From: a virus
Strand: one strand, 5' to 3'
DNA length: 64,000 nucleotides
IMG/VR virus record: IMGVR_UViG_3300030107_004423
Span: 18,924-82,923 of that record
The position numbers were made by a program, and so were the translations under genes. Shown here in pieces: positions 33-64,000 of the stretch (position 1 is its first letter; every line of letters starts with the position of its first letter). Under the pieces are notes generated by a model. It saw only the letters and a program-made list of their open reading frames with translations. It ran no database searches and was not told the DNA's origin.

Positions 33-43
33 TTTAGGCCTCC

Positions 44-691: not shown

Positions 692-703
692 TGTAACCTC
701 TCT

Positions 704-5162: not shown

Positions 5163-5172
5163 TTAACTTCTC

Positions 5173-6743: not shown

Positions 6744-6751
6744 ATAGCCTC

Positions 6752-8302: not shown

Positions 8303-9003
8303 TATCTACCGCCTCTTTGTTGTTTTTGTTGTGGAGGTTTTCCAAAAGAATTGCTATAGTCTGCTTTTAAAGATTCTAAATGAGTATTTAAAGTTCTTGC
8401 CAATTCACTATCTTCCTCTGTTATGTTAATTTCTGCAATCTTAGCTTCTATTGATCTTATAGCTGCAAAAGTAACTACTAAATATACCATTTCTGCAGGA
8501 AAATACTTAACATCATCATGAGTATTATTTAAAGCTACACCATTACCATCTACTGGACTATTATTAATATAGTACACTTCAATACCATTATTACTACTTG
8601 GAACAGGATATACATTTACAATACCAGTATCATCTAATACATAAGCAGGATGATATTGAGATGCATAATGTATGCTATCTTTATCTACTACTCTTGATTG
8701 TAGAGCTACACTTACTTTTCTACACTCTCTCCATGCAGTAGATCCATCTGAACTTCCATCAGCTCCAGCTTCCCTTAAAACTGTAAGTATCTTTGCTCTA
8801 CCTATTTCTATTCCTTGAGAATCACTTGCAGTTTTTCTTATAAAAAGATCAGCATCTTGAGGTCTTGATGCTATAATTTTATTAGTAACATCTATAACAC
8901 CATCTCTTAAGAATTGACTTAATTCTGTATTGTCTGGAGTAGTACCACTATCAGATATTGTTATTCCTGTTAAAGCTGATACTTGTGAATTAAAATTTGC
9001 CAT
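8302..9003 (-). CDS. Head-tail ring adaptor A, 233 aa
   Basis: The N-terminus has NTELSQFLRDGVIDVTNKII; the middle is beta-rich (Y.PAYVLDDTGIVNVYPVPS, IEVYYIN); the C-terminus is a helical hairpin (VYLVVTFAAIRSIEAKIAE...LESLKADYSNSF). This layout fits adaptor proteins (P22 gp4 / T7 gp11 type) that sit below the portal. The partial gene at 63353 is its paralogue with the same three parts. A good AGGAGA site precedes the ATG. It starts cassette A directly after the head genes. Confidence 0.78.
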   Translation of the reverse strand: MANFNSQVSALTGITISDSGTTPDNTELSQFLRDGVIDVTNKIIASRPQDADLFIRKTASDSQGIEIGRAKILTVLREAGADGSSDGSTAWRECRKVSVALQSRVVDKDSIHYASQYHPAYVLDDTGIVNVYPVPSSNNGIEVYYINNSPVDGNGVALNNTHDDVKYFPAEMVYLVVTFAAIRSIEAKIAEINITEEDSELARTLNTHLESLKADYSNSFGKPPQQKQQRGGR

Positions 9004-17926: not shown

Positions 17927-18186
17927 AGTGCTTTTATATCCTTTATTATTTCTGTTAATGCATCTTTTTTTGTTGTTAATTCAGAAATTTCAGCTTCAAT
18001 ACTTGCTTTATCTGATTCATAATGATGAAGCTCTACTTCAGACTTATTATCAGCTAAAGCAGTGCCTGTTTCACTATCCCATCTTTTTTGTGTTAGATAG
18101 TAACGAGTAATTCCATCACTATCATCAGCTTTACTAAAACTTACTGCTGATTTACTTTTTAAACTTACATAGTTTTTTATATTCAT
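17923..18186 (-). CDS. Small protein downstream of the fibre, 87 aa
   Basis: N-terminal ~50 residues are beta-like (YYLTQKRWDSETG); the C-terminal ~35 form a coiled coil (SIEAEISELTTKKDALTEII). It overlaps the fibre stop by four bases and precedes the 72-aa gene. A tail-fibre assembly or chaperone role is suggested by position only. No family recognised. Confidence 0.7.
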   Translation of the reverse strand: MNIKNYVSLKSKSAVSFSKADDSDGITRYYLTQKRWDSETGTALADNKSEVELHHYESDKASIEAEISELTTKKDALTEIIKDIKAL

Positions 18187-21100
18187 TTCAATCTCCTTTT
18201 TAATTCATTAACTTCTTTAGATAATTCTTGCACTGCTTTAATAAGAGGCACAACTAATGCTGAATATTGTATTCCTTGTTTTCCATTTGCATCTTCTGAC
18301 CAACCACTAAAACTTGTACCACTTTTTTCTATTGTTTCTTTTACTTCTTGTGCAATTAATCCGTCCCAAACCTTTTCATCATCAAACTCATCTCTAACAC
18401 CATCTTCATATCTTTTTTCTCGTATCTCTTTATCCCAATCGGCAGGGTGTAATTTTTTATATTTTCTTGGCTTTAAATCATTTATAAAATCTAATCCTAA
18501 TGTATTATTTTCTATATCTTTTTTAATTCTTTTATCTGAATCTATAGTCCAATCTACTTGGATATTAGCATTAGCAATAGAAGCATTACCTATTTTAACA
18601 CTATTTAATGCTGTTGTTGTTGCTTGATAGCCTATACAAATTTGATTATCAGCATCTGCATCAAAAGCTACATCTGAACCAACACCTGTATTATTTGCAC
18701 CTGTAGTAATTCCATCACCTGCTTGATATCCTACCATCGTATTTTCATTGCCTGTAGTTAATGTATCTAATGCTTCATCACCTATTCCAACATTTTTATC
18801 ACCTGATAAATTCATATATCCTGCTTTAGTACCAATTAAAACATTTTGATTAGCAGTACAATGTCCTGCATCAGCACCTACATTGCCTGACATAGCGTTC
18901 CAACCTAATATTACATTTTCATAACCTGTATTACTATCTGCATCATCACTTTCACCATTTCTAAAAGCTGAAGAACCTATTGCTATATTTCTACCTGCAC
19001 CACTTGCTCCTGTTGATTTGTATCTTCCTGCTTGATAGCCAATATATACATTATCATTTGATGTAGTGTTTTCATATCCTGCTGTATATCCTAAAAAGAA
19101 ATTATATTGCCCTGTTGTATTTTTATAACCTGCATCAGAACCTATACCTGTATTAAAACTTGCTGTAGATGTGTACAATGCTCTGCGACCCATTGCTACA
19201 TTGTAGCCACCTGTTACATTAGTACTTAACGATTTTGGACCAACTGCTGTATTGTAATTTCCTGTAGTGATATTTTGCCCTGCCTCATCTCCTACTAATG
19301 TATTACCTACACCATATGTTAAATCAACACCTGCATTATATCCGATTGCTACTTGTCTATCTGTTTCGCTTAATGTAGCATTTACTACTACTACTGCTGT
19401 ATTTGATGTACCTGCGTGTGGGTCTGTAAATGTTAATTCATCATCTGATTTATATCCGTACCCTGCTGTATTAACTGTAAATGTAGGATTTCCTGAACCA
19501 TCAGTTTCTATATCAAATGTTGCTCCTGTTCCATTTACCGAATCATCACTTGTTGCTGGTATATTTGTATGTGATTGACCTGGTTCCCAAGCATCTGATG
19601 GTGTTGGAGTGGTATCATCTACTGTACTTATTCCACCACTTACTCTTAAATTTTTAAATGCTCCTACTCCTATAGCAACACAACCTGTTTGACCACTATA
19701 AGAACCCATAGCATTACCTATAGCTACTACATTACTTGCATTAAATACATTACTACCAGCACCACTACCAATCATGGTATTTAAATTACCTAATACATTT
19801 CCACCTGCACCTGCACCTATTAAAGTATTTTGTTTAGCAGTAGTCATATCAGTACCTGCATAAGCACCAATTACAGTATTGTTGTATGATGATGCTGATG
19901 TTCCAAGTATTAATGTATCTGAAGAAGCTATATAATTACTTAAACTATATAATGCTCTATATCCAATAGCAATATTTCTTTCACCTGAATATGCAGCCAT
20001 TCCACCACCATCACCATAACCTCTTAATCTATTAGCACCCTTACCTGCACCAAGCGTTTCGTAACCTAATGCAATGTTATTATTAGCAGTTGTTACATAT
20101 TTACCTGCTGATTGACCAAGAAAAAATGAAAATTGCGTAGACGTAGCACTTTCACCTGCACTATTACCTATACATACATTATACCCACTTCCATCATAAT
20201 TTTGAAGTTTTAATGAGTTTTTTCCAATCGCTATATTATCACTACCTGTATCTTCTGTCTTTAGTGCTTCATATCCTATAGCAATATTATTTGAACCTGT
20301 TAAATTTTTACTTAATGTACTACTTCCAATCCCTATATTTTTTTCTGCTGTAAAATTAACAGCCGATTCAGAACCTGTAGCAAAATTATCTCCCATTGAT
20401 TTGTAACCAAAAGCAATATTATCTGATGCGCTTAATGTAGCTGAAGCATAATTAGTAGCTTCGTGATAAGTTCCATTGACAAAAGCATAAGCACCCATAG
20501 CAATATTATAATTACCTGTCTTGTGATTTTGACCTGCAAAAGTACCACAATAAAAATTATCTGCACCTGTTGTTGTGCTTCTACCTGCTTGGCTACCAAG
20601 CGCTGTATTTCTATTCCCTGTAGTTAAATCATTTAAAGCATAATTACCTATAGCAGTGCAATTCATATAATTAGAAGCAGTTGTTCCATATAATGAACCG
20701 TGTCCTATACTTATATTTCCTCTATTACTTGAGCCTGTATTATCTCCTAAAGTGCCATAATTATATCCTGCACTATTGCCTATATGTATATAATCTGCTG
20801 AATAGTTACCATATGCAGTTTGCCAACCTACTGCTACAGTTCCACGAGCATTTAAAGCATTCCTACCTGCTTCATATCCTAATGCTGTCGATTTAAAAGG
20901 CACTCCATCTCCTTTTGTGTTGCTATGCCCTTTTAATGAATAATAGCCTACTGCTGTATTACTATGCCCTGTTGTTGTAGTGTCGCCTGAATATGCTCCT
21001 ATATATGTATTTCCATCTGCTGTTGTTATTTCTTCACCTGAATATGCCCCTAAAAATACATTTTTTTCCCCTGTAGATAAAGAAGTCCCTGAATAAGAAC

Positions 21101-23651
21101 CAACAGCAACATTTTTATCTGCTGTAAATGCTGTAGATGTTCCAACATTATCAGAATGTCCTAAACTTTTATATCCAACAGCCACATTATCAGATGCATC
21201 ATTATCTGCCCAACCTACACTACCATCTCCATTAGGGTCTTCTGTATTATAGCCACCTCTCATTGCTTCGTTGCCTATAATTGTATTTCTTGCACCACCT
21301 CCTAAATATGCTCCTGCAAAATATCCTATACCTGTACTTGTTGCTCCTGACCTATATAAAGCATAATTACCTATAGCAGTACCACCTGTTTGTGTTGTTA
21401 TAGCACCTAATGCAGATTTACCAATACACATATTACCAGAACCTGAAGTGATTAATGCTCCTGCTCCTGCTCCTAATGCTACATTTTGTGAGCCACTTGA
21501 TATATCTCCTAATGCAACCTTACCAATAGCTGTATTTTCTCCACCTGTAAATGCACTTGAATTTGCAGTTCCCATAGCACTGTACCCTAAAGCTACATTA
21601 CCACTGCAATTATTATCTCCATAACTATTAGCACTTGTTCCGTTTCTACCTGCTCTTGCACCTACAAAAACATTATATCCTAATTGTGAAGCACCTGAAT
21701 ATCCCCAAGTTTCTCCTGCTTTATCTCCAATAAAAACATTCCAACCTGTATTTGAACCACCTCTTACTTGATATCCTGCTTGATATCCAATAGCTACTGT
21801 ACCATAATCACTTCGACTTGCAGTCATATTTACTAAAGATTCATACCCTATTGATACATTTCTTGAACCTGTTAAATTTTCACTTAATGCTTTAGTACCT
21901 ATAGCAACATTCTTTTCTCCTGTAAAATTAGCTACATCATCTCCATAATTATGTCCCATTGCATAATGACCAATAGCAATATTATCTTCGCCTGTATTAT
22001 TACCTTTATCATCTGATTCACCATTTATTAAAGCATAATTTCCTATAGATATATTCCAATCTGATGCAGTTCTATATCTACCTGATACATAGCCAATAGC
22101 AATATTATCATCTCCTGATTGCATATCTATCATAGAATGAGTACCAATAGCTGTACATCTATGAGCATCTTGAATATGTTGCATAGATGTATTTCCAATA
22201 GCTATGCTGTTTTGTGCTGTAAAATTAGTTTCACCTTGCCCTTGCATAGAAGCATAACCAATAGCTACATTTTGATATCCTGTATTATTAGCAGGTGCTG
22301 TACTATGTCCGTGTGTCATAGAAAATACACCAATAGCTACATTATATGAGCCAAGATTTATATCACTTGTTCTATCTGCACCACCTAAATATCTACCTGC
22401 TTGTTTCCCTAAAAAGAAATTAGCATCTCCATATTGACATTGATATCCTGCTTGATATCCTATTGCTACATTACCAAATGTTTGCTGATTATTTCCTGAC
22501 GACTCTGTACCTGCATCAAGCAATGCTTGATAACCTATAGCAACATTAGAATTAGAATATCTATTGTCTTTTAATGTTTCATAGCCTAAAGCCATATTAT
22601 AACTTGCAGTGATTGCATTTAATAATGATGATTGACCTATAGCTACATTACTTGTGCCTGTAATAAAAGCATTCACACCTTGCGAATTATCAGAATCATA
22701 TAATGCCTTTTGGTAACCATACATAGCTTGGTCGCCAATAGCTACATTACTACCTGCTCCTCTTAAATTTCCTAATGTTTGAAATCCTATAGCTACATTT
22801 TTATCATCAGCACCATCATTAGCATTCATCAATGCACCCCTACCAATAGCTACATTTCGTTCAGGGTCTGTATCTCCTGTCATTACAGAATGCATAGCTT
22901 GATAGCCTATTATTACGCTACTTTGTCTTGCTAAAGAAATATTATTATATTGACCTAATTCTAAATATTGATTTCCTGATACTCCGTGTACAGTTAATGC
23001 TACATTTGCAGTATTTTTATCTCTTAAATAAATAGAATTTGCACCAATACCAAATTGCCAAGTATCATATGTATCTCTTGCTATTTCAAATGGTCTTGCT
23101 AAACTCGATGTTCCACTTATCTGTACTTCGCCATCTTCATATACTATAAGCCTATTATTTCCACCACTCATTAATGTTAATTGTATAGCATTGCCTGATG
23201 TATAATCAGTTAAATTAATTCTACCTCTTGATGTTGCATTAGCAAATATACTTACATTGACTGCTTGTGCATCACCTGTAAATGCTAAATTTTGATAATC
23301 ACCACCAGCAGCTTTTGATATAGCAACAGATCCTCCAAATGTAGTTGTGTTAGTACTTGGGTCCATTGCCATAAGTACACTTGAAGTTAATGCAGAACCA
23401 TTAGATATTTTTAATATATCTGAATCACTATTATCTACACCTACAGACCAAGATTCATCAGCTGTTTTCATTTCAATAGCTGCATCACCAGAACCTGTTT
23501 GTTCTACTTTTAGGGAGGGTACAGTACTATCATTAGACTTTAATACATCTAATATATAATCTGTATCTACAGCTGTTTTACCAACAGCAATAGCCTTCTG
23601 TCCACTTACGGGACTAGGAGTGCTTATAAATCCGCCACCAATTAACGCCAT
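18183..23651 (-). CDS. Giant YadA-like tail fibre with S74 self-cleaving chaperone, 1822 aa
   Basis: From about residue 245 to 1690 the protein is made of many repeats of the type N-VAIG--A-----G, the beta-roll unit of trimeric autotransporter (YadA/Hia) head domains. An ~84-aa TPTPS...GYG domain interrupts them at ~1344-1427. The C-terminus is a Peptidase_S74 intramolecular chaperone: S1705 and K1710 in DSDKRIKKDI fit the Ser-Lys dyad, so the last ~118 residues would be cut off after trimer folding. It ends in a coiled coil (VQELSKEVNELKRRLK). Likely host-recognition fibre; no enzymatic domain seen. Confidence 0.88.
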   Translation of the reverse strand: MALIGGGFISTPSPVSGQKAIAVGKTAVDTDYILDVLKSNDSTVPSLKVEQTGSGDAAIEMKTADESWSVGVDNSDSDILKISNGSALTSSVLMAMDPSTNTTTFGGSVAISKAAGGDYQNLAFTGDAQAVNVSIFANATSRGRINLTDYTSGNAIQLTLMSGGNNRLIVYEDGEVQISGTSSLARPFEIARDTYDTWQFGIGANSIYLRDKNTANVALTVHGVSGNQYLELGQYNNISLARQSSVIIGYQAMHSVMTGDTDPERNVAIGRGALMNANDGADDKNVAIGFQTLGNLRGAGSNVAIGDQAMYGYQKALYDSDNSQGVNAFITGTSNVAIGQSSLLNAITASYNMALGYETLKDNRYSNSNVAIGYQALLDAGTESSGNNQQTFGNVAIGYQAGYQCQYGDANFFLGKQAGRYLGGADRTSDINLGSYNVAIGVFSMTHGHSTAPANNTGYQNVAIGYASMQGQGETNFTAQNSIAIGNTSMQHIQDAHRCTAIGTHSMIDMQSGDDNIAIGYVSGRYRTASDWNISIGNYALINGESDDKGNNTGEDNIAIGHYAMGHNYGDDVANFTGEKNVAIGTKALSENLTGSRNVSIGYESLVNMTASRSDYGTVAIGYQAGYQVRGGSNTGWNVFIGDKAGETWGYSGASQLGYNVFVGARAGRNGTSANSYGDNNCSGNVALGYSAMGTANSSAFTGGENTAIGKVALGDISSGSQNVALGAGAGALITSGSGNMCIGKSALGAITTQTGGTAIGNYALYRSGATSTGIGYFAGAYLGGGARNTIIGNEAMRGGYNTEDPNGDGSVGWADNDASDNVAVGYKSLGHSDNVGTSTAFTADKNVAVGSYSGTSLSTGEKNVFLGAYSGEEITTADGNTYIGAYSGDTTTTGHSNTAVGYYSLKGHSNTKGDGVPFKSTALGYEAGRNALNARGTVAVGWQTAYGNYSADYIHIGNSAGYNYGTLGDNTGSSNRGNISIGHGSLYGTTASNYMNCTAIGNYALNDLTTGNRNTALGSQAGRSTTTGADNFYCGTFAGQNHKTGNYNIAMGAYAFVNGTYHEATNYASATLSASDNIAFGYKSMGDNFATGSESAVNFTAEKNIGIGSSTLSKNLTGSNNIAIGYEALKTEDTGSDNIAIGKNSLKLQNYDGSGYNVCIGNSAGESATSTQFSFFLGQSAGKYVTTANNNIALGYETLGAGKGANRLRGYGDGGGMAAYSGERNIAIGYRALYSLSNYIASSDTLILGTSASSYNNTVIGAYAGTDMTTAKQNTLIGAGAGGNVLGNLNTMIGSGAGSNVFNASNVVAIGNAMGSYSGQTGCVAIGVGAFKNLRVSGGISTVDDTTPTPSDAWEPGQSHTNIPATSDDSVNGTGATFDIETDGSGNPTFTVNTAGYGYKSDDELTFTDPHAGTSNTAVVVVNATLSETDRQVAIGYNAGVDLTYGVGNTLVGDEAGQNITTGNYNTAVGPKSLSTNVTGGYNVAMGRRALYTSTASFNTGIGSDAGYKNTTGQYNFFLGYTAGYENTTSNDNVYIGYQAGRYKSTGASGAGRNIAIGSSAFRNGESDDADSNTGYENVILGWNAMSGNVGADAGHCTANQNVLIGTKAGYMNLSGDKNVGIGDEALDTLTTGNENTMVGYQAGDGITTGANNTGVGSDVAFDADADNQICIGYQATTTALNSVKIGNASIANANIQVDWTIDSDKRIKKDIENNTLGLDFINDLKPRKYKKLHPADWDKEIREKRYEDGVRDEFDDEKVWDGLIAQEVKETIEKSGTSFSGWSEDANGKQGIQYSALVVPLIKAVQELSKEVNELKRRLK

Positions 23652-52955: not shown

Positions 52956-53635
52956 TATTTTCTCCTTTTACTTAAGAAATTACCCAAACTTAACAACCCT
53001 CCTAAAACAGGAGCACCTATTCCTATTGCGCTTGGTATTGCACTTAATCTATCTCTATTAGCTAGACCATATCCTATAGCACCTATAGCTAAAGATTTTC
53101 CTAGCAAGTTAATTAAATTATTACCAGCAGCACTTTTAGCTCCTTCTACTGCGCTATCTGCAACGCCTTTAACTTTTTTTGTAAGACTTTTAACACCTTC
53201 CTTAGTTTGATCTCCTATATTAGTAGCACCTCTAACATCTTCCATTTCAGGCTTTAAAAGATTTGCACCTTTATTAATAGCACTTTTGTTAGGCATATAA
53301 GATTGATTTTCAAGAATACTTGGAGTTGTTGCTGTTTTCCCTGCATCTGTAAGACTTACTCTACCTCCAGCAGGAGTATATAAATCTTGAAAAACATTTG
53401 TAGACTTTTCATATATAGGATTGTCTTGAGCATCTTTTATATCAAGCATTTTATTAGTATCAAATGTTTGTTGCTCACTCCACATACCATGAAGATCTCC
53501 AGCTATTTTTGCACTAGCTTCTATCCTTTGAGATTGCTCTTTTTCTAATTCTGCTAACTTATCACCTATTACTGAAAGCTCATATCTACTTTCATATGGA
53601 TCAAAAGCACTCATATTTCTATATTTAGGTGGCAT
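52955..53635 (-). CDS. Internal virion protein candidate, 226 aa
   Basis: Charged N-terminal half (SVIGDKLAELEKEQSQRIEA) and a Gly/Ala/Leu-rich C-terminal half (LLGKSLAIGAIGYGLAN, SAIGIGAPVLGGLLSLGNF) ending SKRRK. The hydrophobic, glycine-zipper-like segments suggest membrane insertion during DNA ejection. Located after the 730-aa fibre like the 215-aa protein after its receptor-binding gene in cassette A. Confidence 0.62.
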   Translation of the reverse strand: MPPKYRNMSAFDPYESRYELSVIGDKLAELEKEQSQRIEASAKIAGDLHGMWSEQQTFDTNKMLDIKDAQDNPIYEKSTNVFQDLYTPAGGRVSLTDAGKTATTPSILENQSYMPNKSAINKGANLLKPEMEDVRGATNIGDQTKEGVKSLTKKVKGVADSAVEGAKSAAGNNLINLLGKSLAIGAIGYGLANRDRLSAIPSAIGIGAPVLGGLLSLGNFLSKRRK

Positions 53636-53658
53636 AATTTTTTCCTTTATATTTTCCT

Positions 53659-55851
53659 TTAAGGATTGTAATGGGTAGCATATGTTACATGAACTACCAT
53701 TGAAGTTAAACTATTATTTGTTATTGCATTATTAAATTTTAAACATAATGGTTTATTATTTAGATCAGTTAATCCTTGACTCATTTCAGAATTTGCATCA
53801 ACTCGCAATCTATAAACCCTATCACCTGCTTCGGATTTCATGAAATTCTTTAAATAACTCCACAATCCAGCTCCACTAGTAGTCGATCCATTGGTTCCAC
53901 TGCCTAAGTATAGGCCTGAACTAGAACTAACGGTTGAATTTCTATCAACAAATACAACACAGCTAATAGGAATAATCATATAGTCAGATCCTGGAGCAGC
54001 AACTAATTCTAAAGCTGTAGTATGCATACTATTTATAGTTGCTTGGTTTGCTGATACTTTATTAAATACTACTGCAGCAGCACCTCCAGTTAAATCAGTT
54101 TCACTGACATCATCAGAAATCCAATAAGGTTTTCCATCTGCCTTAGTATATAAATAACCACCATTACCAGCTGAAGGAGCAGATGGACTAGAACCTTGCT
54201 CAGATTTAATATTTAATAATCCATTTATTGTTTGTTTTGAATCATCACCAAATCCTAGAGTTACGCCAACTTTTCCAGTAATACCACTAGTTTCACCTAA
54301 AGCATAAAAAGCTTGTTTTAGGAGACTGCCTGCTGCAACATACATATACATTTCTCCAGCTTCAGAACCTGCTGTATTGCTGTTACATAAAAATCTTATA
54401 TTTCCATAATCTTGAGAATTATTAGCACTATCATAACCTTCTGCTGTAATAGAAAGTATTGAATCTGCATCATTGGTTGATGTCCCACCTCTATTTTTAA
54501 GAAATACTATTTGAGAAGGTTTATTGTCAGCTGTTGTATTTTTTATAGTTATTTGTGGTTTATAAGATGTTGAACTTGCAAAAGTAGCAGCATCACCATT
54601 AACTGTTAAATTTCCTGCAATAGTAGTATTAGAACTAGCTCCATTTGCTATAGTAACATCTAGTTCAGCATCAGCATCACCATCTTCTATTAATAATCCT
54701 TGTTCTAAACCACCATCATGAGATGCTATATTAAATTGTAATTTACCACCTTCATTACCAGCAGTAGATTCTTCTATAGAGCCTATTATAGTAGCATATG
54801 TATGAGCAGCGCTACCAGCATCTTCACCGTCAAAAGATATAGTTCCAAGAGTATCATTAGCAGGACTAGATCCATTTTTATTAAATCTTAATTTACCTGC
54901 ATTACCATCTGCATTTGTATTTTCTATTGTTATTACGGGATATTCACTGCCAGAGTTAGAAAAAGTTATATCTCTATTATTAGAATCATTATATGTTATT
55001 ACTTCTTTATTTTCTACTGCTATTGTAGCTTCTGCACTTCTAGATATTGTAGTATTATCTGCATGCCCTAATTCTATAGATCCTATACCTAAAGTATGAG
55101 AAGTAGAATTTGCTATATTGCTTTGTGCTAATGTATTGGTAAAGCTACTAGCTCCTAAATCAACAGCTATTTTATTACTTTCTATTACTAGACCACCATT
55201 AGATTTTAAATCTACAGCTAGTCCTAATGTACCATTTCCTGTAGTAGATGTTATACCGTCACCAGCAGTTAAATCATTCACAGCTGGTCCATCAGTTCCT
55301 CCTATTAATAATTTACCATCAGTAGACATAGCAACAGAACCAACAGTATCAGTTCCACTATCTTGACTTATTAATACAGCTTTATCTGTTAAACTAGTAG
55401 CTCCAGTTCCTCCAGAGGCTACTGGAAGAGTGCCATCAAAATCAATAGTTACTTTATCATCACTAGTATCTGTACCTTCAGCTACTGTAGTAGTTATATT
55501 TGTTCCACCTAAAATTTCTAATGTATTTCCGTGACCAACAGGTCTATTAGATCCAGAATTTCCCTCTACGTTAAAAGAATGCGCAGATTGCAAATCAATA
55601 GTACCATTGCCATTAGCTATAACTAATGGGCTTTGTACAGTTATAGTTGCTTTATTTAAAGAATTATCAGAACTTTTGCCAATCAATATTTCTCCATTAG
55701 CATATGTAGTTTGACCAGTACCTCCATCAGCTACTGCTAATGTAGTACCAGTGCCAGACCCAAGACCAACAGCTACTTTTCCAGGTCCAGTTTCTGTTAA
55801 GCCTAGTCCACTTAAATCTATCTTAGTTATATTTTTATATTTTTTAGCCAT
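53659..55851 (-). CDS. Tail fibre, 730 aa
   Basis: N-terminal ~75 residues include the repeat GGTGQTTYANGEILIGKSS, typical of phage fibres; the rest is Thr/Ser/Gly/Asn-rich beta-helix-like sequence with TISFDGEDAG and QGLLIEDGD-type blocks. The C-terminal ~140 residues form a distinct globular domain (MIIPISCVVFVDR...LCLKFNNAITNNSLTSM..HVTYATHY), probably the receptor-binding head. No S74 domain is present, unlike the 1822-aa fibre. It follows the 74-aa anchor directly. Confidence 0.8.
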   Translation of the reverse strand: MAKKYKNITKIDLSGLGLTETGPGKVAVGLGSGTGTTLAVADGGTGQTTYANGEILIGKSSDNSLNKATITVQSPLVIANGNGTIDLQSAHSFNVEGNSGSNRPVGHGNTLEILGGTNITTTVAEGTDTSDDKVTIDFDGTLPVASGGTGATSLTDKAVLISQDSGTDTVGSVAMSTDGKLLIGGTDGPAVNDLTAGDGITSTTGNGTLGLAVDLKSNGGLVIESNKIAVDLGASSFTNTLAQSNIANSTSHTLGIGSIELGHADNTTISRSAEATIAVENKEVITYNDSNNRDITFSNSGSEYPVITIENTNADGNAGKLRFNKNGSSPANDTLGTISFDGEDAGSAAHTYATIIGSIEESTAGNEGGKLQFNIASHDGGLEQGLLIEDGDADAELDVTIANGASSNTTIAGNLTVNGDAATFASSTSYKPQITIKNTTADNKPSQIVFLKNRGGTSTNDADSILSITAEGYDSANNSQDYGNIRFLCNSNTAGSEAGEMYMYVAAGSLLKQAFYALGETSGITGKVGVTLGFGDDSKQTINGLLNIKSEQGSSPSAPSAGNGGYLYTKADGKPYWISDDVSETDLTGGAAAVVFNKVSANQATINSMHTTALELVAAPGSDYMIIPISCVVFVDRNSTVSSSSGLYLGSGTNGSTTSGAGLWSYLKNFMKSEAGDRVYRLRVDANSEMSQGLTDLNNKPLCLKFNNAITNNSLTSMVVHVTYATHYNP

Positions 55852-56075
55852 TATACTTCTATTGTTATTCCTACTGAGCTTGTACCTTCTGAATCAAATC
55901 TTGTTCTCCACAATTTATTATTATACCTTATATACATACATAATTGCTCTTCATCTGTAAATCTAAATTCAGGAACACCTTCTTTCATATCTGATAATCT
56001 TGGTTTTCCTTTACCAATATTAACTCTTTCTTGCTTTTTATGTATTAAATTTCTTATAGTTCTATCAAAGCCCAT
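55851..56075 (-). CDS. Short tail anchor protein (cassette B), 74 aa
   Basis: Aligns with the first ~60 residues of the 239-aa protein at 704 (RN-I-KKQ, GKP-LSD, GVPEFR, MYIRYNNKLW). The receptor-binding-like half is missing, so the protein is either a stand-alone anchor for the 730-aa fibre next door or a truncated derivative. ATG overlaps the nozzle stop, and the fibre ATG overlaps its own stop. Confidence 0.7.
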   Translation of the reverse strand: MGFDRTIRNLIHKKQERVNIGKGKPRLSDMKEGVPEFRFTDEEQLCMYIRYNNKLWRTRFDSEGTSSVGITIEV

Positions 56076-59000
56076 TATTTAATACCTTTCACTCTGTATA
56101 CTATTGATATATCGTTTATTTCAAATCCAGCAGGCACTGTGCCATCGCAAGTAAGTTTTAAAGCAAATGACTTAATATTATTTGCTTCTGATGATGTATT
56201 AGGCTTTAATTCCGCTATTGTCCAATTAGAATCTACATGAGCTAATTCATTGCTTGTAAAATTATCTCCATCTTTAAATACTTTTGAAAATGATTGAGCG
56301 CCATTTACATCATATTTAACTTGAACATTAGTAGTGCCACCTCCACTTTTATATGTAATATACACTTTATAAATCTTTTTTCTTACTCCTGGGCTACCAA
56401 AGTCAATATCCTTTGTTGTAAGTAGTAATTTGCCACTAGAAACAGTACTAGGAGATGGATTCCACTTTCTCATGTCTGCAGCTATTTGATATACTAAATC
56501 ACCATCCCAATCCAATACCATATTTGTTTTATTGGCAGCCTCAAAAGCTTCAGTACTTTTTGACCAAGACTGAGTAACTAAATCATAAATATATGCATCA
56601 GTTCCAGTTCCTAAATCATTAAATATTAAATGTTTTTCCTTAGGTATATACGATACATTTTGATTTGAAGTAATAAAGCTTCTCCATGTACTAGCTTTAA
56701 TTAATCTTCTTCCTTGTTTTTGTAACAAATCAACTACTTCTTTACCATTATATAAAAAAGCTCCATACTTATTAGCAAAAGCTATACCTATATCAGTTTT
56801 TGTAGAAGCATTTATATTAGATATACCTCTATGCTCTAAAGTATCTTCTAAAAATTCTATATCTTGTGATATATTTATTATGTGTAATTTATTCTCTTTA
56901 AATTGTAATATCCTATCAGCATATTCTTCTAGTTTAATTATCCTATCTCCATCTTGTACAGATGCTTCTACAAGTCTATCATTAGTAAATGTATCAAATC
57001 TATTAACATGGGATTTCATCATAGCATCAGTTTTTATATCTGTATGCCCAAATTCATCTACTATTTCAGGAGCGGCTATATATAATTTCCTATTAGCAAC
57101 TACACCAGTTCCATATTTAGGAGTTAATTGTAAGGCTGTTACATTATCATTAGGATATCCTGTTTCTAATTGATATGTTATTAATTCGCTAAAATCATCA
57201 TTAATAGTAGAGCAAGAAACACTTGTTGAATTATGAGCTACCCAAGGTTCAAAAGAAGTGGATGTTATAGCCTTTCCTCCTTTTTCTAAGTCATATCTAG
57301 ATTGTAAATACCAATCAGTACTTTCTTTATCATTTTCTCTAGCATAGACCTTAAACCCTGTTATTCTTGGATTAATATCATCAGGATTAGAAGCGTTAAT
57401 AATAAATTTCAATCTATACCCAAAGCCATCATATGCTTGTTGATCTCCACCACCACCACCTCCACTACCAGCTGTCCAATAAGTAACAACACCATCTCTA
57501 GATCCATTTTGATAAAAATTATTTATTTTATAAAGTGGAGATTCTTGAACATCATCATATATAGTAGTTACAGCAAAATCCCAATGTTTCTCTTTCCAAT
57601 TAGTTTCATAACCAGATTTAACATATTCTTCCATTGTAACTATTACACTGCCAGCCTCTGGTGGATCCATATCATTTACATAATTCTCTTTAAAATTAAA
57701 ATCAAACATATCATGAGCATCTAACCTGCAAACAGTATTCACCCATCTTTTTTCAGAATATGACAAAGGAAAGTTAGTAAATATTCTAAATGTTGCTCCA
57801 TCAGCATTAGTATTATCTGTAGCATTTTGACTTAAATCAAATTCAGTTGGACCAAACCCACCGTCACTTGCTCTGTTTTGTATTGTAGTTCCTGCAGGTA
57901 TTGCATTAGTACCATTAGTCTGTTCAATATACCATCCAGGCCTAATTGTCTTATCGATATCAAATACTTGTTGACCACTAGTACCTATATTAACTTCATC
58001 ATCACCAGAGTCGACAGAAACTGGAGATTGAGCTCCAGAACTTGGAAAAGTACCTGTTACCTCGGCTTGCTCAAAATTAACAAATCTTGTTCTATCTATA
58101 TAAGAATAAAAAATTCCAGGACTAGAATAGTTTCCATCAGTTATTCTTAATGTTCCATCTATTATAGTATAAAATGGTTTTGAATTTGCTCCACTTATCA
58201 ATCCTGTCATTCCTGAAGTCCATGCATTGTCATATACACTAAAAAAGTACGATTTTCCTGTAGCATCATTATCGTGCAATAATAAATAATTATCAAATTG
58301 TATTGGATGCTCTGGGTATGATAATGATTCAATATCAACCGATACATAAGAATCTTCTTTATCTGCAGAGACATCTCCTAAATCAACTGCTTTAATATAT
58401 AGCTTGTCATTTATAGCCCATGGAGTAGTACCATCATTTTTATATCCATTACCATTGGATGTTATAACTAAATTAGAACCTGCTTCGGTAGCAGTTGTGC
58501 TTCCAGTAGAATTTCTAACCATTCTAACTTGAAATCCATTTCTTTTACCTACATTCTTTAGTCTATATACTGTCGATTTGTTATCTGCAAAAGATCTTAA
58601 TATACCAGTAGAATTATTAGCCCAATAATAAGCATTTTTTTTAAGATTTCCATAACCTCCAGAAGTACCGTTTCTAAGACCACCACCTCTTACAGACATG
58701 TTTAATGCATCGTTATGATCTTGTACTCTATTCCAATGATCAGTACTTTCACTCATAAAGAAATATGCAGATCCAGATAAATCTTCATCAAAATCTCTCC
58801 AGCCAATAGAATCTTGATTTTCAACGCTCATTCCCATCCATCCTTCTAAATTCTTCCAATCATCATCTGTAGCTACTCTCCAACCACCATCTGGTGGAAA
58901 ATTAGCATGATTAATAGCTGCATGATTGTATAAAAATCCAAAAGTATCTTGATTTCCATCTACTCCATCTGGAAATGCTCTGTGAGGATTATTACTAGTT

Positions 59001-59569
59001 GTCCAAGTATCATCATTTGCTGTTGTAGCTTCAGTGCCATTTGTATTCCCATTTCTAAAATGAGTTGCTTTCCAATCTTGTTGCATCCAATCTAAATCAC
59101 CAAGTTTTATCCAAGTATAGCTATTTGTTCCATCCATAACTCCTGATGCTAATGTATTCGTACCAGCAATATATACAGTAGCTCTTATTCCAGAATCAAC
59201 AGTCCTATTAGTATCTTCATATAATGTTACATTTGTATAAGTTCCTGCTACTAAATCTGCTACATCTCCTGTATAGGACGCTGAATTAAAAGTATCTACA
59301 GTAGAAACTCCAGTGGCTACTGTAGGTAGTCCAGCACCTCTATAATCATGATTAAATTGAAACAATCCATAACCTGGATTTATATCAATATCAGATTTAT
59401 CAGAACTTAAAGATCTATCTGCATTTTTACCTACAGTTTTAATTCTACCTAAATCTTCAACAGATACACCAGTAGCTTCAACAAGCTCATTAGGAGCTAT
59501 ATCTCTAGCATCAGAAGCTTCGCTTATTCCACCTTCAAATCTATCTATTTTAACTATTTGTTTTGGCAT
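56075..59569 (-). CDS. Tail nozzle/hub protein B with C-type-lectin-like insert, 1164 aa
   Basis: Paralogue of the 1146-aa protein: N-terminus (DRFEGGISEASDARDIAPNE...), C-terminal blocks (DAMMKSHVNRFD, EASVQDGDRIIKLE, DRILQFKENKLHI) and end (ISIVYRVKGIK) agree. Residues ~150-352 resemble the fibrobacter-succinogenes-major-domain/FGE-type C-type lectin fold: LGDLDWMQQDWK, RNG, FGFLYNHAAIN, GWRVATDDDW..LE, and NGFQVRMVR. That domain is absent from copy A and could bind a surface ligand. Otherwise a beta-rich nozzle. Confidence 0.75.
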   Translation of the reverse strand: MPKQIVKIDRFEGGISEASDARDIAPNELVEATGVSVEDLGRIKTVGKNADRSLSSDKSDIDINPGYGLFQFNHDYRGAGLPTVATGVSTVDTFNSASYTGDVADLVAGTYTNVTLYEDTNRTVDSGIRATVYIAGTNTLASGVMDGTNSYTWIKLGDLDWMQQDWKATHFRNGNTNGTEATTANDDTWTTSNNPHRAFPDGVDGNQDTFGFLYNHAAINHANFPPDGGWRVATDDDWKNLEGWMGMSVENQDSIGWRDFDEDLSGSAYFFMSESTDHWNRVQDHNDALNMSVRGGGLRNGTSGGYGNLKKNAYYWANNSTGILRSFADNKSTVYRLKNVGKRNGFQVRMVRNSTGSTTATEAGSNLVITSNGNGYKNDGTTPWAINDKLYIKAVDLGDVSADKEDSYVSVDIESLSYPEHPIQFDNYLLLHDNDATGKSYFFSVYDNAWTSGMTGLISGANSKPFYTIIDGTLRITDGNYSSPGIFYSYIDRTRFVNFEQAEVTGTFPSSGAQSPVSVDSGDDEVNIGTSGQQVFDIDKTIRPGWYIEQTNGTNAIPAGTTIQNRASDGGFGPTEFDLSQNATDNTNADGATFRIFTNFPLSYSEKRWVNTVCRLDAHDMFDFNFKENYVNDMDPPEAGSVIVTMEEYVKSGYETNWKEKHWDFAVTTIYDDVQESPLYKINNFYQNGSRDGVVTYWTAGSGGGGGGDQQAYDGFGYRLKFIINASNPDDINPRITGFKVYARENDKESTDWYLQSRYDLEKGGKAITSTSFEPWVAHNSTSVSCSTINDDFSELITYQLETGYPNDNVTALQLTPKYGTGVVANRKLYIAAPEIVDEFGHTDIKTDAMMKSHVNRFDTFTNDRLVEASVQDGDRIIKLEEYADRILQFKENKLHIINISQDIEFLEDTLEHRGISNINASTKTDIGIAFANKYGAFLYNGKEVVDLLQKQGRRLIKASTWRSFITSNQNVSYIPKEKHLIFNDLGTGTDAYIYDLVTQSWSKSTEAFEAANKTNMVLDWDGDLVYQIAADMRKWNPSPSTVSSGKLLLTTKDIDFGSPGVRKKIYKVYITYKSGGGTTNVQVKYDVNGAQSFSKVFKDGDNFTSNELAHVDSNWTIAELKPNTSSEANNIKSFALKLTCDGTVPAGFEINDISIVYRVKGIK

Positions 59570-59571
59570 AT

Positions 59572-59691
59572 TTAATTTTTGGGAGAGATGTATGTTATCT
59601 CAATAGTCGACCCACACGAACATAGAGGAGTAGTAAACTCAGGAAGCTCATAACATACTCCCTCCCAATATTCCTTACTTAAGTATAACAC
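59572..59691 (-). CDS. Conserved overlapping small ORF (copy B), 39 aa, GTG start
   Basis: Counterpart of the ORF at 4856: GTG start inside the end of the 59-aa gene, shared pattern YW.GVC.E...FTTPL.SCGS.I...Y. It ends with PKN just before the nozzle start rather than overlapping it. Conservation of frame, start and Cys/Gly pattern across divergent copies supports translation. Function unknown. Confidence 0.6.
   Translation of the reverse strand: MLYLSKEYWEGVCYELPEFTTPLCSCGSTIEITYISPKN
59579..59668 (-). promoter_or_regulatory. Long stem-loop just upstream of nozzle gene B
   Basis: Outer arms 59579-59585/59662-59668 (7 bp) and inner arms 59590-59598/59650-59658 (9 bp) form a hairpin at the same place as the one in cassette A, with different arm sequences. 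The loop shares GACCCACA.GAAC and GGAGTAGT.AACT with copy A. Arms complementary in both copies argue for an RNA structure. Confidence 0.6.
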
Positions 59692-59854
59692 CTTTAACTA
59701 CAGCTTCAACTGATTCGTAGATAGCTTCAATTATCTTTCCTTCAGTCTTTTCATTAATGATAGGTATATTTATATTTTCATTTAACTCTTTAACCATCTT
59801 TTCTTTCATTTCATCATTAAAGATGTAATTAGCTATCATTTCCTTCATGTCCAT
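59675..59854 (-). CDS. Conserved small protein (copy B), 59 aa
   Basis: MDMKEMIANYIFNDEMKEKM...; two substitutions from copy A (4983). The GGAGAAG site and spacing are the same. Function unknown. Belongs to the highly conserved core of the duplicated cassette. Confidence 0.8.
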   Translation of the reverse strand: MDMKEMIANYIFNDEMKEKMVKELNENINIPIINEKTEGKIIEAIYESVEAVVKGVILK

Positions 59855-59864
59855 TTAACTTCTC

Positions 59865-59969
59865 CTATTTATTTGACCATTCTTGCCATTTAATCTTAAC
59901 AGCTATATAGCATATAAATATCGGTATTGATATAAATATACTCTTTACTATAGCTATTAATAATTCCAT
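59865..59969 (-). CDS. Small membrane peptide (copy B), 34 aa
   Basis: MELLIAIVKSIFISIPIFIC..., one membrane helix and basic tail. Three residues differ from the copy at 5173. Here the ATG overlaps the stop of the 23-aa lysine-rich peptide (TGATG), which is not present in copy A. Confidence 0.75.
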   Translation of the reverse strand: MELLIAIVKSIFISIPIFICYIAVKIKWQEWSNK

Positions 59970-60040
59970 CACTTCTTCTTACCTGTTTTTTTCTTTTTAG
60001 GTCTTCCTGGTTTTTTATATGTTCCTGGCCCTTGAGGCAT
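59969..60040 (-). CDS. Lysine-rich micro-protein (cassette B only), 23 aa
   Basis: AAGGAGAACAAT precedes an ATG encoding a Pro/Gly/Lys-rich peptide (MPQGPGTYKKPGRPKKKK...). It is inserted between the 76-aa and 34-aa genes, with no counterpart in cassette A. Similar in style to the 27-aa peptide at 15857. Such basic micro-proteins may bind nucleic acid or phospholipid; unknown. Confidence 0.65.
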   Translation of the reverse strand: MPQGPGTYKKPGRPKKKKTGKKK

Positions 60041-60053
60041 ATTGTTCTCCTTT

Positions 60054-60284
60054 TTATTGATTATTCCAATATCTTTTTCTAGCTTTTGCTTCAAAATAAT
60101 TATCAGTAGAATCCTCTGGAGCTAAAATATATTGATCATTTATTAAGTAAAAATCATCTTCCTCCCAGCTACATACAAATCCTTCACTATCATAAGATTC
60201 TTCTATCCTAGGATACATACAGTTTAATCCTTCACCAACAATAGTAAATGATATAGCATAAATAAGATATGTAGTAAAGTCCAC
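60054..60284 (-). CDS. Conserved small protein (copy B), 76 aa
   Basis: Paralogue of the 5277 gene with six substitutions (for example E-S-Y versus E-H-Y near residue 30). Same hydrophobic N-terminus and acidic body. ATG overlaps the stop of the 153-aa gene. Function unknown. Confidence 0.8.
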   Translation of the reverse strand: MDFTTYLIYAISFTIVGEGLNCMYPRIEESYDSEGFVCSWEEDDFYLINDQYILAPEDSTDNYFEAKARKRYWNNQ

Positions 60285-60745
60285 TACTTCTTACCTCTTT
60301 TTAATGGCTTATCACTTCCCCATACTGCATCTTTATCAGTCTGTAATTCACAAGTAGTTCCACCATCTCCACCAACTTCTACAACCTTATCATTTAATTT
60401 AACTTTCATTGGAGCTTTAGTTAAAACATAGTCCATTAATTTTTCTAAAGAATGATTTGCAGCTTCATTAGCTTTTGCAGCGTCTGATGGTTTTTCAGGT
60501 GGAGCAGTCATCTGTTGCAATACATTTATAAGACCTAAAGTAACAGTTGAAACTAGTCCAGTAACTACGGCTAAAGCCTCAGACTTAAGATAATAAGCAG
60601 AACCTACAAGAACTCCAACCATAATCATAATAGCTGGTACTGATTGTATCCCTACATAGTATCGTAAAGAATCAGCCATCATTCTTTTTTTGACTGCTCT
60701 GTCTTTTTTAATTCTATCTATTTCTTCTTTACTTAGTTGAGCCAT
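60284..60745 (-). CDS. Holin-like membrane protein (copy B), 153 aa
   Basis: Identical to the 5507 protein except K11R and E15D in the basic N-terminus; two membrane helices and the GGDGG-containing tail are unchanged. DNA differs mostly at synonymous positions, so the protein is under strong constraint. See copy A for topology. Holin role is inferred. Confidence 0.75.
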   Translation of the reverse strand: MAQLSKEEIDRIKKDRAVKKRMMADSLRYYVGIQSVPAIMIMVGVLVGSAYYLKSEALAVVTGLVSTVTLGLINVLQQMTAPPEKPSDAAKANEAANHSLEKLMDYVLTKAPMKVKLNDKVVEVGGDGGTTCELQTDKDAVWGSDKPLKRGKK

Positions 60746-61520
60746 TTATCATTTCTCCCCATACACTAGTTTTACCCTTTATTATCTCTACTACTTCTAC
60801 TTTAAAATCACCATTCTTAAACCAATCAACTATAGCGAATGCATGATTCCAATTATGTAGATTTCCTTTAAGCCATGTATTGGCCTCTGATTTCATATCT
60901 TTTAAGCATCCTAAACTCCATGCACTTTGAGTGCCTCCAAGGCCTGTTTCTGTAAACCTCTGTAAGTCATGTGTATGTCCATATATAATATTTTCTTTAT
61001 ACGCTGATAAATGCTTTTTAGCGTGATGTATAGGAACATAATCACCATGTGTAAAGTTTAATTTGCCTATTTTGAGCTTTTTGGTACTTATATAGGGCCA
61101 ATATGTATAACCCCTGTCATCTAGCCTTAAAGCTGATTTAGTCTCGTAAGCAGGCAAATATGGATGCCTATCAACAAAGTTATCTAACCATACTTCATGA
61201 TTACCTTGTATGAAATGCCTTTCTTTACAATTTATTTTATCCAAAGAGCGATCTATAATATCCATACCTTTGTTAACTTGTTTAACTTCTTTATTTAACA
61301 TTGGTATTAAAACTTCTAAAGGAGGTTTTTCTTTGTGCCTCCAGTGATGAGGACTAAACGTCTCCCATTCTCCTGTATCGCCTAAATCTATATAAGTATC
61401 AGGCTTTACTAATTCTATTGCTTTGCAAACTACATTTATGGCTTTTTTATCATGTAACGGGAAATGCTTATCTGGTGTAACTATAGCTCTTTTAACTACA
61501 CCATCTTTAACATCAGGCAT
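60729..61520 (-). CDS. Calcineurin-like metallophosphoesterase (copy B), 263 aa
   Basis: All metal-site motifs (DKH, GD, GNHE, THGD, GHTH) are retained, so both copies should be active. Sixteen of the 17 differences from copy A lie within the first 147 residues; residues 148-261 are identical. An 83-base stretch (60997-61079) is identical in DNA to 6220-6302. It overlaps the 153-aa gene by 17 bases, as in copy A. Confidence 0.93.
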   Translation of the reverse strand: MPDVKDGVVKRAIVTPDKHFPLHDKKAINVVCKAIELVKPDTYIDLGDTGEWETFSPHHWRHKEKPPLEVLIPMLNKEVKQVNKGMDIIDRSLDKINCKERHFIQGNHEVWLDNFVDRHPYLPAYETKSALRLDDRGYTYWPYISTKKLKIGKLNFTHGDYVPIHHAKKHLSAYKENIIYGHTHDLQRFTETGLGGTQSAWSLGCLKDMKSEANTWLKGNLHNWNHAFAIVDWFKNGDFKVEVVEIIKGKTSVWGEMINGSTK

Positions 61521-61528
61521 ATAGCCTC

Positions 61529-61675
61529 CTATTTTAGTTCTTTAAATATCTTTATACTCATATAGATAAAAGTTGCAACCCCAACTAGTAAACTCACTAC
61601 TGGTGGTACCATCTCCATAAAAGATATCCAAAATCCTCCCATTCCAACGCCTGCTGTTCTTAATGTATCTGTCAT
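61529..61675 (-). CDS. Small membrane protein (copy B), 48 aa
   Basis: MTDTLRTAGVGMGGFWISFM..., one hydrophobic helix and basic tail; three residues differ from the copy at 6752. ATG overlaps the stop of the 121-aa gene. Membrane partner in the conserved core; role unknown. Confidence 0.75.
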   Translation of the reverse strand: MTDTLRTAGVGMGGFWISFMEMVPPVVSLLVGVATFIYMSIKIFKELK

Positions 61676-62040
61676 TATCTTATTGCTATAGGTGCTTGCA
61701 TAATTCTAACGCTACCTATTTTATTACTTTCTGTTTTATCTATTAATTTATAAAATTCTCTCATATAATATTCTTTAGTTTCAAAATCGCTCATATCTTC
61801 AGCAATTCTTGCTTTTAAATAATAAACTAAAGCTCTAGCTATTGCATTGCTTATATTTGATATTTCATCTGATTCATCTGATATAGGACTACCATCTACT
61901 GCTTTTGGTACGTATGTATATGTAATATCTATAGATTCTGAAATATTTTCAACTGGAGATTTCCATTCTCCATCATCTAATTCTACTATAGCTAAACTTT
62001 GACCTTCCCAATAATATGCATATTCTCTAGAAGCACCCAT
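61675..62040 (-). CDS. Tail adaptor/completion protein B, compact form, 121 aa
   Basis: Corresponds to the two ends of the 377-aa protein at 6898: N-terminal YAYYWEGQSLAIVE and C-terminal ALVYYLKARIAEDMSDFETK...EFYKLIDK. The ~250-residue insert is missing, so this is the minimal, probably ancestral form. Helical C-terminus fits a ring adaptor. ATG abuts the stop of the 437-aa gene. Confidence 0.7.
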   Translation of the reverse strand: MGASREYAYYWEGQSLAIVELDDGEWKSPVENISESIDITYTYVPKAVDGSPISDESDEISNISNAIARALVYYLKARIAEDMSDFETKEYYMREFYKLIDKTESNKIGSVRIMQAPIAIR

Positions 62041-63353
62041 TATAAATTATCCTCATCTGTAATTGTTGGTCTTCCTATAAATCTAGGAATAGATCTTCTT
62101 TTGTCAGTTTCATTTAAATGATGTTTTACTTTTACATCTAAAACTCTTACTACTTCTTCTGGAAGATCATAAAATCTTTTATTTTTTACTATGTCTATAT
62201 ATTTATTACCTACTCCTTTTAAAATTATATTATTAGAAGAGTTTTCTATAAATGTAGACAAATTATTAGAAGATGCAGTTCCGCCTAAATATAATTTAGT
62301 GCCATCTGAACTAGCACCATGAACATTATAATATCCATTTGAAAAAGTATTATCTGAATTACTATCAATACCAACAGAATTTTCTATTGTTAATTTAGAT
62401 CCTGATTCAAATTGAGAAAAAGAAGAGGCTGATGAAGTATCTGTAACTTCTGTAAGTATTGGGGATATTCTCCAATTATCTAATGTGAATTTACATGTAG
62501 TACCTGCATTATGCATCCATACAAAAAAATAATGCTCTGATGCAGTCGCCTTAAATCCCCATTTATTTTCTATTGTATCACTTGTTTTTCCTATTGGTAT
62601 TATAGATCCTTTTTGATCTAGTGGGGTAGATAATTGTCCATCTATCGGTTTAGATCCAAATGTTTGAGGACTAAAACTAGAATGAGCATTATCACCAGCG
62701 GTTATTGCTTTAGCACAAATTACTTCAGTTTGATATTGTTGATTATCTGCTTCCCATGGAGTATACCACCATGCTGTTTGACCAGCAGCATCGCTTGATG
62801 CTCCCTTATATGTAGATATAGTTGCGTATGCATTTGTATTAGCAATGCTTAGAGTACTGTCAAATTCCCATAAATAATTATCTCCAACTACCAAATTACT
62901 TACTTTATATCCAACACCAAAAACACCACCAACGCCATCTACTCTCCATTGCAAATCAGTCCCACTACTTATATAACCTTGATAATCAGTTCCATTGCCC
63001 ACATCTCCAGTTGCATTGACAGGTATATAATTAAACCTAAAAAACCCAGAAGGAGGATTATTTCTATCTACATATGTTGGAAACGCAGTTCCTCCAGCCC
63101 ATCCAAAATCACTATTTCTAGGCATAATTCCACTACCTAAAGCTCCTATATCTAGTGGATCTTGGTGACTAGCGCTTTTTATATGAGGAGCAAATTTAAG
63201 GGTATTACTTTTTAACAATACCTCTGATTTGGATCCTTTTTTTACATTTATAGAAGAATACATATTCATTTCTTCTAAACCATCTTTTATATATGCTATA
63301 GCTCTACCAGTTTGATTAATACCAGCTCTTTCCATTATTTCTTTAACTTTCAT
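62040..63353 (-). CDS. Tail adaptor-like protein B with large beta insert, 437 aa
   Basis: Residues 1-34 (MKVKEIMERAGINQTG...) and the last ~55 (KRFYDLPEEVVRVLDVK...IPRFIGRP) align with the 93-aa protein at 8021. Between them lies a ~340-residue insertion, Ser/Thr/Gly/aromatic rich, with a carbohydrate-binding-like block (FKATASEHYFFVWMH...TCKFTLDNWRISP). Thus the surface domain sits in this gene in cassette B, but in the neighbouring gene in cassette A. Confidence 0.68.
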   Translation of the reverse strand: MKVKEIMERAGINQTGRAIAYIKDGLEEMNMYSSINVKKGSKSEVLLKSNTLKFAPHIKSASHQDPLDIGALGSGIMPRNSDFGWAGGTAFPTYVDRNNPPSGFFRFNYIPVNATGDVGNGTDYQGYISSGTDLQWRVDGVGGVFGVGYKVSNLVVGDNYLWEFDSTLSIANTNAYATISTYKGASSDAAGQTAWWYTPWEADNQQYQTEVICAKAITAGDNAHSSFSPQTFGSKPIDGQLSTPLDQKGSIIPIGKTSDTIENKWGFKATASEHYFFVWMHNAGTTCKFTLDNWRISPILTEVTDTSSASSFSQFESGSKLTIENSVGIDSNSDNTFSNGYYNVHGASSDGTKLYLGGTASSNNLSTFIENSSNNIILKGVGNKYIDIVKNKRFYDLPEEVVRVLDVKVKHHLNETDKRRSIPRFIGRPTITDEDNL

Positions 63354-64000
63354 TATCTACCTCTCTGAGCTTGTTGCTTAGGAGCCATAACTCCAAAAGC
63401 TGTATTGTATTGTTCTTTTAAATTACCTAAATTAACTGATAAAGCTTGCACTAATTCTATATCTTCTTCATCTATAGTGTATTCAGCTAGTTTAGCCTCT
63501 AAAGACTTTATAGCTGCATATAGAACTACTAAATAAACTTTATCATCGGGGAATATACCTATATCACTATGAGAATAAACTAATGCTGATCCACTTTTAT
63601 TATAAGGGATATTATTTACATAATAAACTTTAAATTGATTTGGGTCCGATCCTGGTGCTGGAAATACACTTATTTTTCCATTTTCTAAGCATGTGTATGC
63701 AGGATTAAATTTAGAAGCATAATCTAAGCTTTCTGAATCTGTAACTAAATATTGTCTTGACGGATCTATTTCTCTACAAGGCCTCCAATTATTAGAAGTA
63801 ACTCCATCTTCACGAACTACAGATATAATTTTAGCTCCATACAAATTCAAACCATTTGCAGTTTGGTCGCTACTTTCTGCCATAAAATGCTTGGTTTGTT
63901 TAGGATCTAAAGATATTATTTTGTTAGTAACATCTATAACTCCATCCTTTAAGAATTGTGATAATTCATTTTGAGTTGGATTTGTAGCGTCTGTAATACT
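63353..64000 (-). CDS. Head-tail ring adaptor B, partial at right edge
   Basis: The frame is open to the end of the window and encodes SITDATNPTQNELSQFLKDG... upstream of the internal ATG at 63883, aligning with the N-terminus of the 233-aa protein at 8302; so the true start lies outside. The middle (Y.SKFNPAYTCLENGKISVFPAPG) and helical C-terminus (YLVVLYAAIKSLEAKLAEY) match copy A. Likely portal-proximal adaptor ring. Confidence 0.78.
   Translation of the reverse strand, partial: SITDATNPTQNELSQFLKDGVIDVTNKIISLDPKQTKHFMAESSDQTANGLNLYGAKIISVVREDGVTSNNWRPCREIDPSRQYLVTDSESLDYASKFNPAYTCLENGKISVFPAPGSDPNQFKVYYVNNIPYNKSGSALVYSHSDIGIFPDDKVYLVVLYAAIKSLEAKLAEYTIDEEDIELVQALSVNLGNLKEQYNTAFGVMAPKQQAQRGR

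Follow-up and report, generated by a model that had tools for sequence, protein, structure and literature searches.

Introduction

RNA structure in bacteriophage T4 shortens the spacing between the Shine–Dalgarno (SD) sequence and the AUG of genes 38 and 25, from 22 to 5 nt and from 27 to 11 nt (PMC3014915). The element described here resembles the T4 25/38 split site (gene 26–25 junction) in that it is intercistronic and lineage-specific, precedes a tail gene, can carry the SD and AUG on opposite sides of a stem, and would shorten the spacing between them by folding (PMC3014915). It differs in that its spacer is ~90 nt rather than the ~20 nt of T4, it has its own mini-ORF, its SD overlaps the upstream stop codon, and the SD follows the stem in relatives of one type (A-type, below), the arrangement here being read from sequence.

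Three other kinds of system invite comparison. As in coupling through overlapping stop and start codons, the two flanking genes overlap without an SD in relatives that lack the insert, and the mini-ORF stop lies 2 nt before the AUG of the downstream nozzle gene or overlaps it, but the element adds an intervening folded mini-ORF. Like the operator hairpin of T4/RB69 gene 43, it stands upstream of a start codon and has loop letters conserved between two relatives; unlike that operator, it does not overlap the ribosome-binding site and has no known binding protein, and across 10–11 members of the wider family its loop is not conserved, so that the pattern of a loop kept on a varying stem does not appear. 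The bypass of T4 gene 60 is similar in that a ribosome may cross a folded gap beside a stop codon, except that two separate proteins are encoded here.

Results and Discussion

Architecture of the record

We analysed a window of 64,000 nt (the whole stretch studied, positions 18,924 to 82,923 of IMG/VR record IMGVR_UViG_3300030107_004423); coordinates below are those of the window unless the contig is named. The record, 82,923 bases long, spans about 1.5 rounds of a ~54.6-kb genome built from two relatives. Contig positions 1–28231 and 54600–82923 (window 1–9003 and 53468–64000) match in gene order, each gene being shifted by almost the same distance, with protein identities between the repeated parts of 22–98%; a terminase and a portal occur once each in the whole record. 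In three more long records of this group (85, 104 and 111 kb) there is a second terminase, and the 59-aa and nozzle genes that flank the element are likewise present twice, 53–60 kb apart, whereas those relatives of 42–58 kb that were checked have a single set. The simplest account is that the record circles a ~54.6-kb genome 1.5 times, switching relative midway; we regard a true double genome as unlikely. We accordingly rejected the presence of two tail cassettes within one genome and treat the two copies, A and B, as the same locus of two different phages. An earlier note on this DNA had suggested that the hairpin may bind a regulator controlling tail gene dosage; the idea of dosage control loses its basis if one locus from two joined phages is being seen twice, and the cassette pair behind it calls for caution because it stems from the joining. 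Among neighbouring genes, PHROGs matches were obtained only to terminase, portal, metallophosphoesterase, helicase/primase and tail-fibre families. Elsewhere in the window (18183–23651), an 1822-aa ORF contains many degenerate short repeats (families D3 and D4).

The flanking genes and the hairpin

The region at 59572–59691 separates two minus-strand genes, of 59 and 1164 aa. The upstream gene of copy B (59675–59854, minus strand) encodes a conserved small protein, MDMKEMIANYIF...VVKGVILK-stop, which is 97% identical to that of copy A (4986–5162, minus strand) and 91% identical to that of locus L003, and has relatives at more than 70 IMG/VR loci. For the downstream gene (56075–59569, minus strand), a Foldseek search with an AlphaFold model returned the nozzle proteins of SU10, P22 (gp10), Sf6 (gp8) and T7 with E values from 1e-14 to 1e-9; by these model matches the 1164-aa product is a podovirus nozzle protein, and the name "nozzle" is right. 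Residues 154–352 of nozzle B form an inserted Fib_succ_major domain (Pfam PF09603, E 1.4e-22) that is missing from nozzle A (1423–4863, minus strand; 1146 aa, 32% identity to nozzle B). Searches of cultured phages by tblastn with the 59-aa and nozzle proteins gave no match, nor did the species genomes searched.

Nested inverted arms occupy 59579–59668. The inner pair, GTATGTTAT / ATAACATAC, is a perfect 9 bp, as first described; the outer stem, given before as 7 bp, is the uninterrupted part of a 10-nt arm pair with one mismatch, TTGGGAGAGA / TCCCTCCCAA. The minus-strand (coding-strand) RNA folds into a 19-bp stem with one bulge at −33.1 kcal/mol (z −3.1), and only 2 of 200 dinucleotide shuffles were as stable, so the hairpin claimed for this region is real. 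Its 5′ arm (59650–59668, minus strand) is UUGGGAGGGAGUAUGUUAU and its 3′ arm (59579–59598, minus strand) is AUAACAUACAUCUCUCCCAA, with one bulged A; between them lies a loop region of 51 nt (59599–59649, minus strand). The stem ends near the upstream stop codon on one side and near the nozzle AUG on the other, 9 nt 5′ of the latter. Together, the minus-strand fold and the structural matches of the nozzle bear out the proposal of a structured RNA before a tail nozzle gene. Copy A has a stem-loop at 4882–4975 (minus strand) whose stem, UACUGG.AUGGGGUAU / AUACCCCAUCCAGUA, differs from that of B and whose predicted energy is −35.1 kcal/mol (z −4.2). An intrinsic terminator was considered and rejected, since a search for a GC stem followed by a T run found none and the letters past the stem are AAAUUAAAU. 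Rfam gave no match for the element at either the gathering score or a relaxed E-value.

Conservation of the stem and drift of the loop

Copies A and B are the only two places in the record with the core GACCCACA(T/C)GAAC...GGAGTAGT. Because the flanking genes and the RNA are on the minus strand, the transcript carries the core as ACUACUCC...GUUCRUGUGGGUC, and the loop region of B contains it as ACUACUCC...GUUCGUGUGGGUC. A search of related phages found the core in four other viral contigs, all of which have this gene pair, and in none of the other relatives examined, a mixed outcome for the refutation criterion that the earlier note had set.

A pattern scan and protein scans extended the family beyond these core carriers to L209/L239, L215, L090, L338, L361, L373 and a truncated L351, giving 10 distinct complete members plus the truncated one, with the translated motif W-E-R-[ST]..[TA]PP.[FY]...CS.GSLTV.Y.SP. 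The conserved part of the family is the outer stem, UUGGGAGAGG/CCUCUCCCAA, while the loop drifts and shrinks by up to 24 nt. Unguided, RNAalifold recovered from ten members an outer helix of 10 bp in which three pairs are doubly compensated. In a model alignment of 16 pairs, which was fitted to the structure and is thus biased toward pairing, 79.7% of cells were paired against 75.0% in shuffled alignments (0/500) and 13 changes affected both sides against 6.0 (0/500), and the values fell when the alignment was slid by one column. Close pairs provide the cleaner evidence: A and L004 differ at two stem pairs, both changed on both sides with none broken, and all four stem differences between B and L003 keep pairing. 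These comparisons show that the stem is kept by compensatory change.

The earlier note had seen in the two copies a conserved loop on a changing stem, and had proposed that a regulator binds the loop as an operator. The description holds for A against B, whose core loops are identical at many positions, and T4/RB69 gp43 operators do hold the loop constant while the stem varies (PMC3014915). Across the ten distinct relatives, however, it is the outer stem that is best conserved and the loop that varies, and the limitation of the core to four further contigs also speaks against a protein-bound operator. Since no other part is as constant across the full family as the outer stem, a recognised loop is not our leading idea, and we regard it as very improbable, the A/B clade being where it might still apply.

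A mini-ORF in the hairpin

The stretch of ~100 bases before the nozzle gene doubles as a mini-ORF of ~40–50 residues. The core lies within a translatable minus-strand frame, YW[YE]GVC..E..FTTPLxSCGS, that overlaps the end of the 59-aa gene and terminates at the nozzle AUG. In copy B this mini-ORF (59572–59691, minus strand) has a putative GTG start, is translated as MLYLSKEYWEGVCYELPEFTTPLCSCGSTIEITYISPKN-stop, and ends 2 nt 5′ of the nozzle AUG; in copy A (4856–5026, minus strand; MNQLRLWLKV...YWYGVCTEPQKFTTPLSSCGSIIVEYTPSSIILRKKNA-stop) it overlaps the nozzle start by 8 nt. An alternative frame in B, MSFLSLLLLYV..., was rejected because it is interrupted in A. When A, L004 and B were compared over the 69 nt that align without gaps, 16 of 34 codon changes in the mini-ORF frame were synonymous; the two remaining forward frames gave 6/38 and 2/32 (p 0.0016 by column permutation). 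This indicates purifying selection on the mini-ORF in A, L004 and B. The loop conservation of these three is largely explained by the mini-ORF and so gives no evidence for a recognised RNA loop. No synonymous excess was seen in L209/L215; outside the A/B clade the codon signal is not strong. The frame is intact in 10 distinct complete relatives, whose indels are all divisible by three in length save for one additional nucleotide towards the end of L006, and the mini-ORF of L351 begins with TAATG on the upstream stop.

It may be the product of the mini-ORF that matters, as a small nozzle-associated or regulatory peptide, with the stem a by-product or a damper of translation. The retention of the frame in all ten complete members with the pattern WER...PP...CS.GS, the synonymous excess in A, L004 and B, and the position of the L351 start would all fit such a role. 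Yet the WER and SP residues are encoded by the stem arms, so that pairing in the stem could account for their conservation; the pairing-preserving 3′-arm changes between B and L003 include amino-acid changes; AlphaFold gave no confident fold for the mini-peptide (pLDDT 63); and hairpin-only inserts such as that of L072 lack an intact frame. We consider a functional peptide quite unlikely.

Translation signals and a possible bridging role

We took SD strength as the energy of the predicted duplex with the anti-SD. On this scale the window's late genes score strongly, the median being −8.2 kcal/mol. Insert-free nozzle genes have almost no SD (−0.1 to −3.2, with one at −5.8 kcal/mol) and must therefore be coupled to the upstream gene; judged from these sequences, translational coupling is the ground state at the junction. 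In copy B an SD-like UAAGGA (59672–59677, minus strand), made up of the stop codon UAA and GGA, lies 3 nt before the stem and gives −6.1 kcal/mol, compared with +2.4 between stem and AUG; in copy A the values are −0.1 before the stem and −6.1 after it. The layout of a split ribosome-binding site, with an SD 5′ of the stem, the AUG just after it and no SD beside the AUG, is thus found in B and not in A. Four or five other inserts, among them L215, L338, L361 and L373, share with A an SD after the stem, whereas L003, L043, L064, L067, L070–L072 and L074 share with B an SD just before it (the stems of L043, L064 and L072 being read by eye for this placement); in L004 and L006 neither flank of the stem carries an SD. 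An SD at the end of the upstream gene occurs in 9 of 11 inserts that lack one after the stem, compared with 3 of 30 insert-free loci (p 3e-5 with kinship ignored); counted by lineage, the pattern is 5/7 versus 1/6 (p 0.10).

The element likely has a role in nozzle expression. We tentatively propose, as a reading that falls somewhat short of an even chance, that the folded spacer and its mini-ORF allow the nozzle gene to remain translationally coupled or to draw on a split ribosome-binding site. In the late mRNA, the intercistronic stem-loop with its mini-ORF, an insertion at the junction of the 59-aa gene with the nozzle gene, would on folding bring the upstream stop and UAAGGA from 102 nt to about 12 nt from the nozzle AUG; predicted distances in other inserts are 7 nt (L043), 14 nt (L071) and 17 nt (L064). 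A terminating or newly bound 30S subunit could then start at the nozzle AUG, by a split ribosome-binding site or by bridged coupling. Ribosomes reading the mini-ORF would instead unfold the stem and stop translating 2 nt short of that AUG, and both routes would link nozzle synthesis to translation of the upstream gene. We hold the proposal no more firmly because the SD pattern reaches p 0.10 when counted by lineage, because the bridging is predicted, and because a screen, as summarised in PMC12548453, points the other way: it found coupling reduced by structure immediately 3′ of the upstream stop codon. Copy A and the other inserts with an SD after the stem, moreover, do not need bridging. Also weighing against the proposal are a spacer (90 nt) far longer than that of T4, the lack of an SD on both sides in L004 and L006, the missing synonymous excess in L209/L215, the low-confidence model of the mini-peptide and the extra base of L006.

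Should this mechanism prove right, uncultivated marine podoviruses would be seen to separate two coupled genes repeatedly by a spacer that folds, and their junctions would offer a natural series for testing the range over which a ribosome can be handed over from stop codon to start codon. Gene finders and RNA libraries miss such an element, which belongs to no annotated RNA family and has an ORF of ~40 codons.

Variation at the junction among relatives

Counting distinct loci with a 59-aa gene before a nozzle gene, we found 21–30 insert-free loci, whose stop codon and AUG overlap or are directly adjacent, and about 18 with an insert of 70–151 nt, nearly all of which form one closing stem. Beyond the family described above there are at least six further insert classes with the same architecture at the same junction and with sequences that are not recognisably related (L049 scored borderline against the family model, at 18.9 bits and E 0.09). 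A closing helix of at least 10 bp was present in 12 of 15 nozzle gaps, compared with 34 of 125 control gaps of the same contigs (Fisher p 1e-4). By this comparison of loci, the element is one version of a variable junction. We also entertain a broader generalisation, which we judge rather unlikely: a recurrent phage class of folded spacers, in which several unrelated stem-loops of ~70–120 nt, one with a real mini-gene, were inserted at one junction and each lets a ribosome cross ~70–100 nt to a start that lacks an SD. If true, the crossing would be longer than in the T4 split initiation sites.

Hairpins of unrelated sequence at the same junction would also be expected of signals for mRNA processing or stability, where the stem would be cleaved by a duplex-specific nuclease of the RNase III type or would shield the 5′ end of the nozzle mRNA, and sequence may drift as long as pairing is kept. 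The stem length is suitable (15–23 bp, bulged), and strong hairpins precede other late genes too, such as the MATFQAQVEALTG gene in L007, L014 and L016. Such a signal accounts neither for the missing SD, nor for the one placed immediately 5′ of the stem, nor for the kept frame of the mini-ORF, and we think it rather unlikely. Alternatively, the stems may be relics of module exchange, linkers with no role in expression left where nozzle genes were swapped. The two copies look as such an exchange might, with 97% identity in the upstream gene against 32% in the nozzle and a DNA similarity that ends inside the element, but the compensatory stem changes and the kept frame point to ongoing selection and make a relic distinctly improbable.

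Several features of individual inserts deserve mention beside the bridging proposal. The 79–83-nt inserts of L043, L064 and L072 make up a second hairpin class with common loop letters, GGAGGTGTGTTCC...ATGATAAATCCTCC; L072 has no intact ORF, and in this single case a TGA, considered as a candidate for recoding, is aligned with a TGG of L064. A third class comprises the 70–71-nt inserts of L067, L070, L071 and L074, with GGAGCAC...GTGCTCC at the same junction. The hairpins of L007, L014 and L016, before the MATFQAQVEALTG / MADFKTQVEGLTG late gene, are very strong, at −33 to −46 kcal/mol per 100 nt. Finally, 13 relatives (L084, L089, L094, L098, L113, L114, L120, L133, L140, L141, L149, L151 and L153) have an ORF of ~70–90 aa ending in ..C.LPEHAQ.. 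directly before the nozzle AUG or overlapping it; we considered this CELPEH ORF as a longer homologue of the mini-ORF and rejected it, the resemblance being one short motif.
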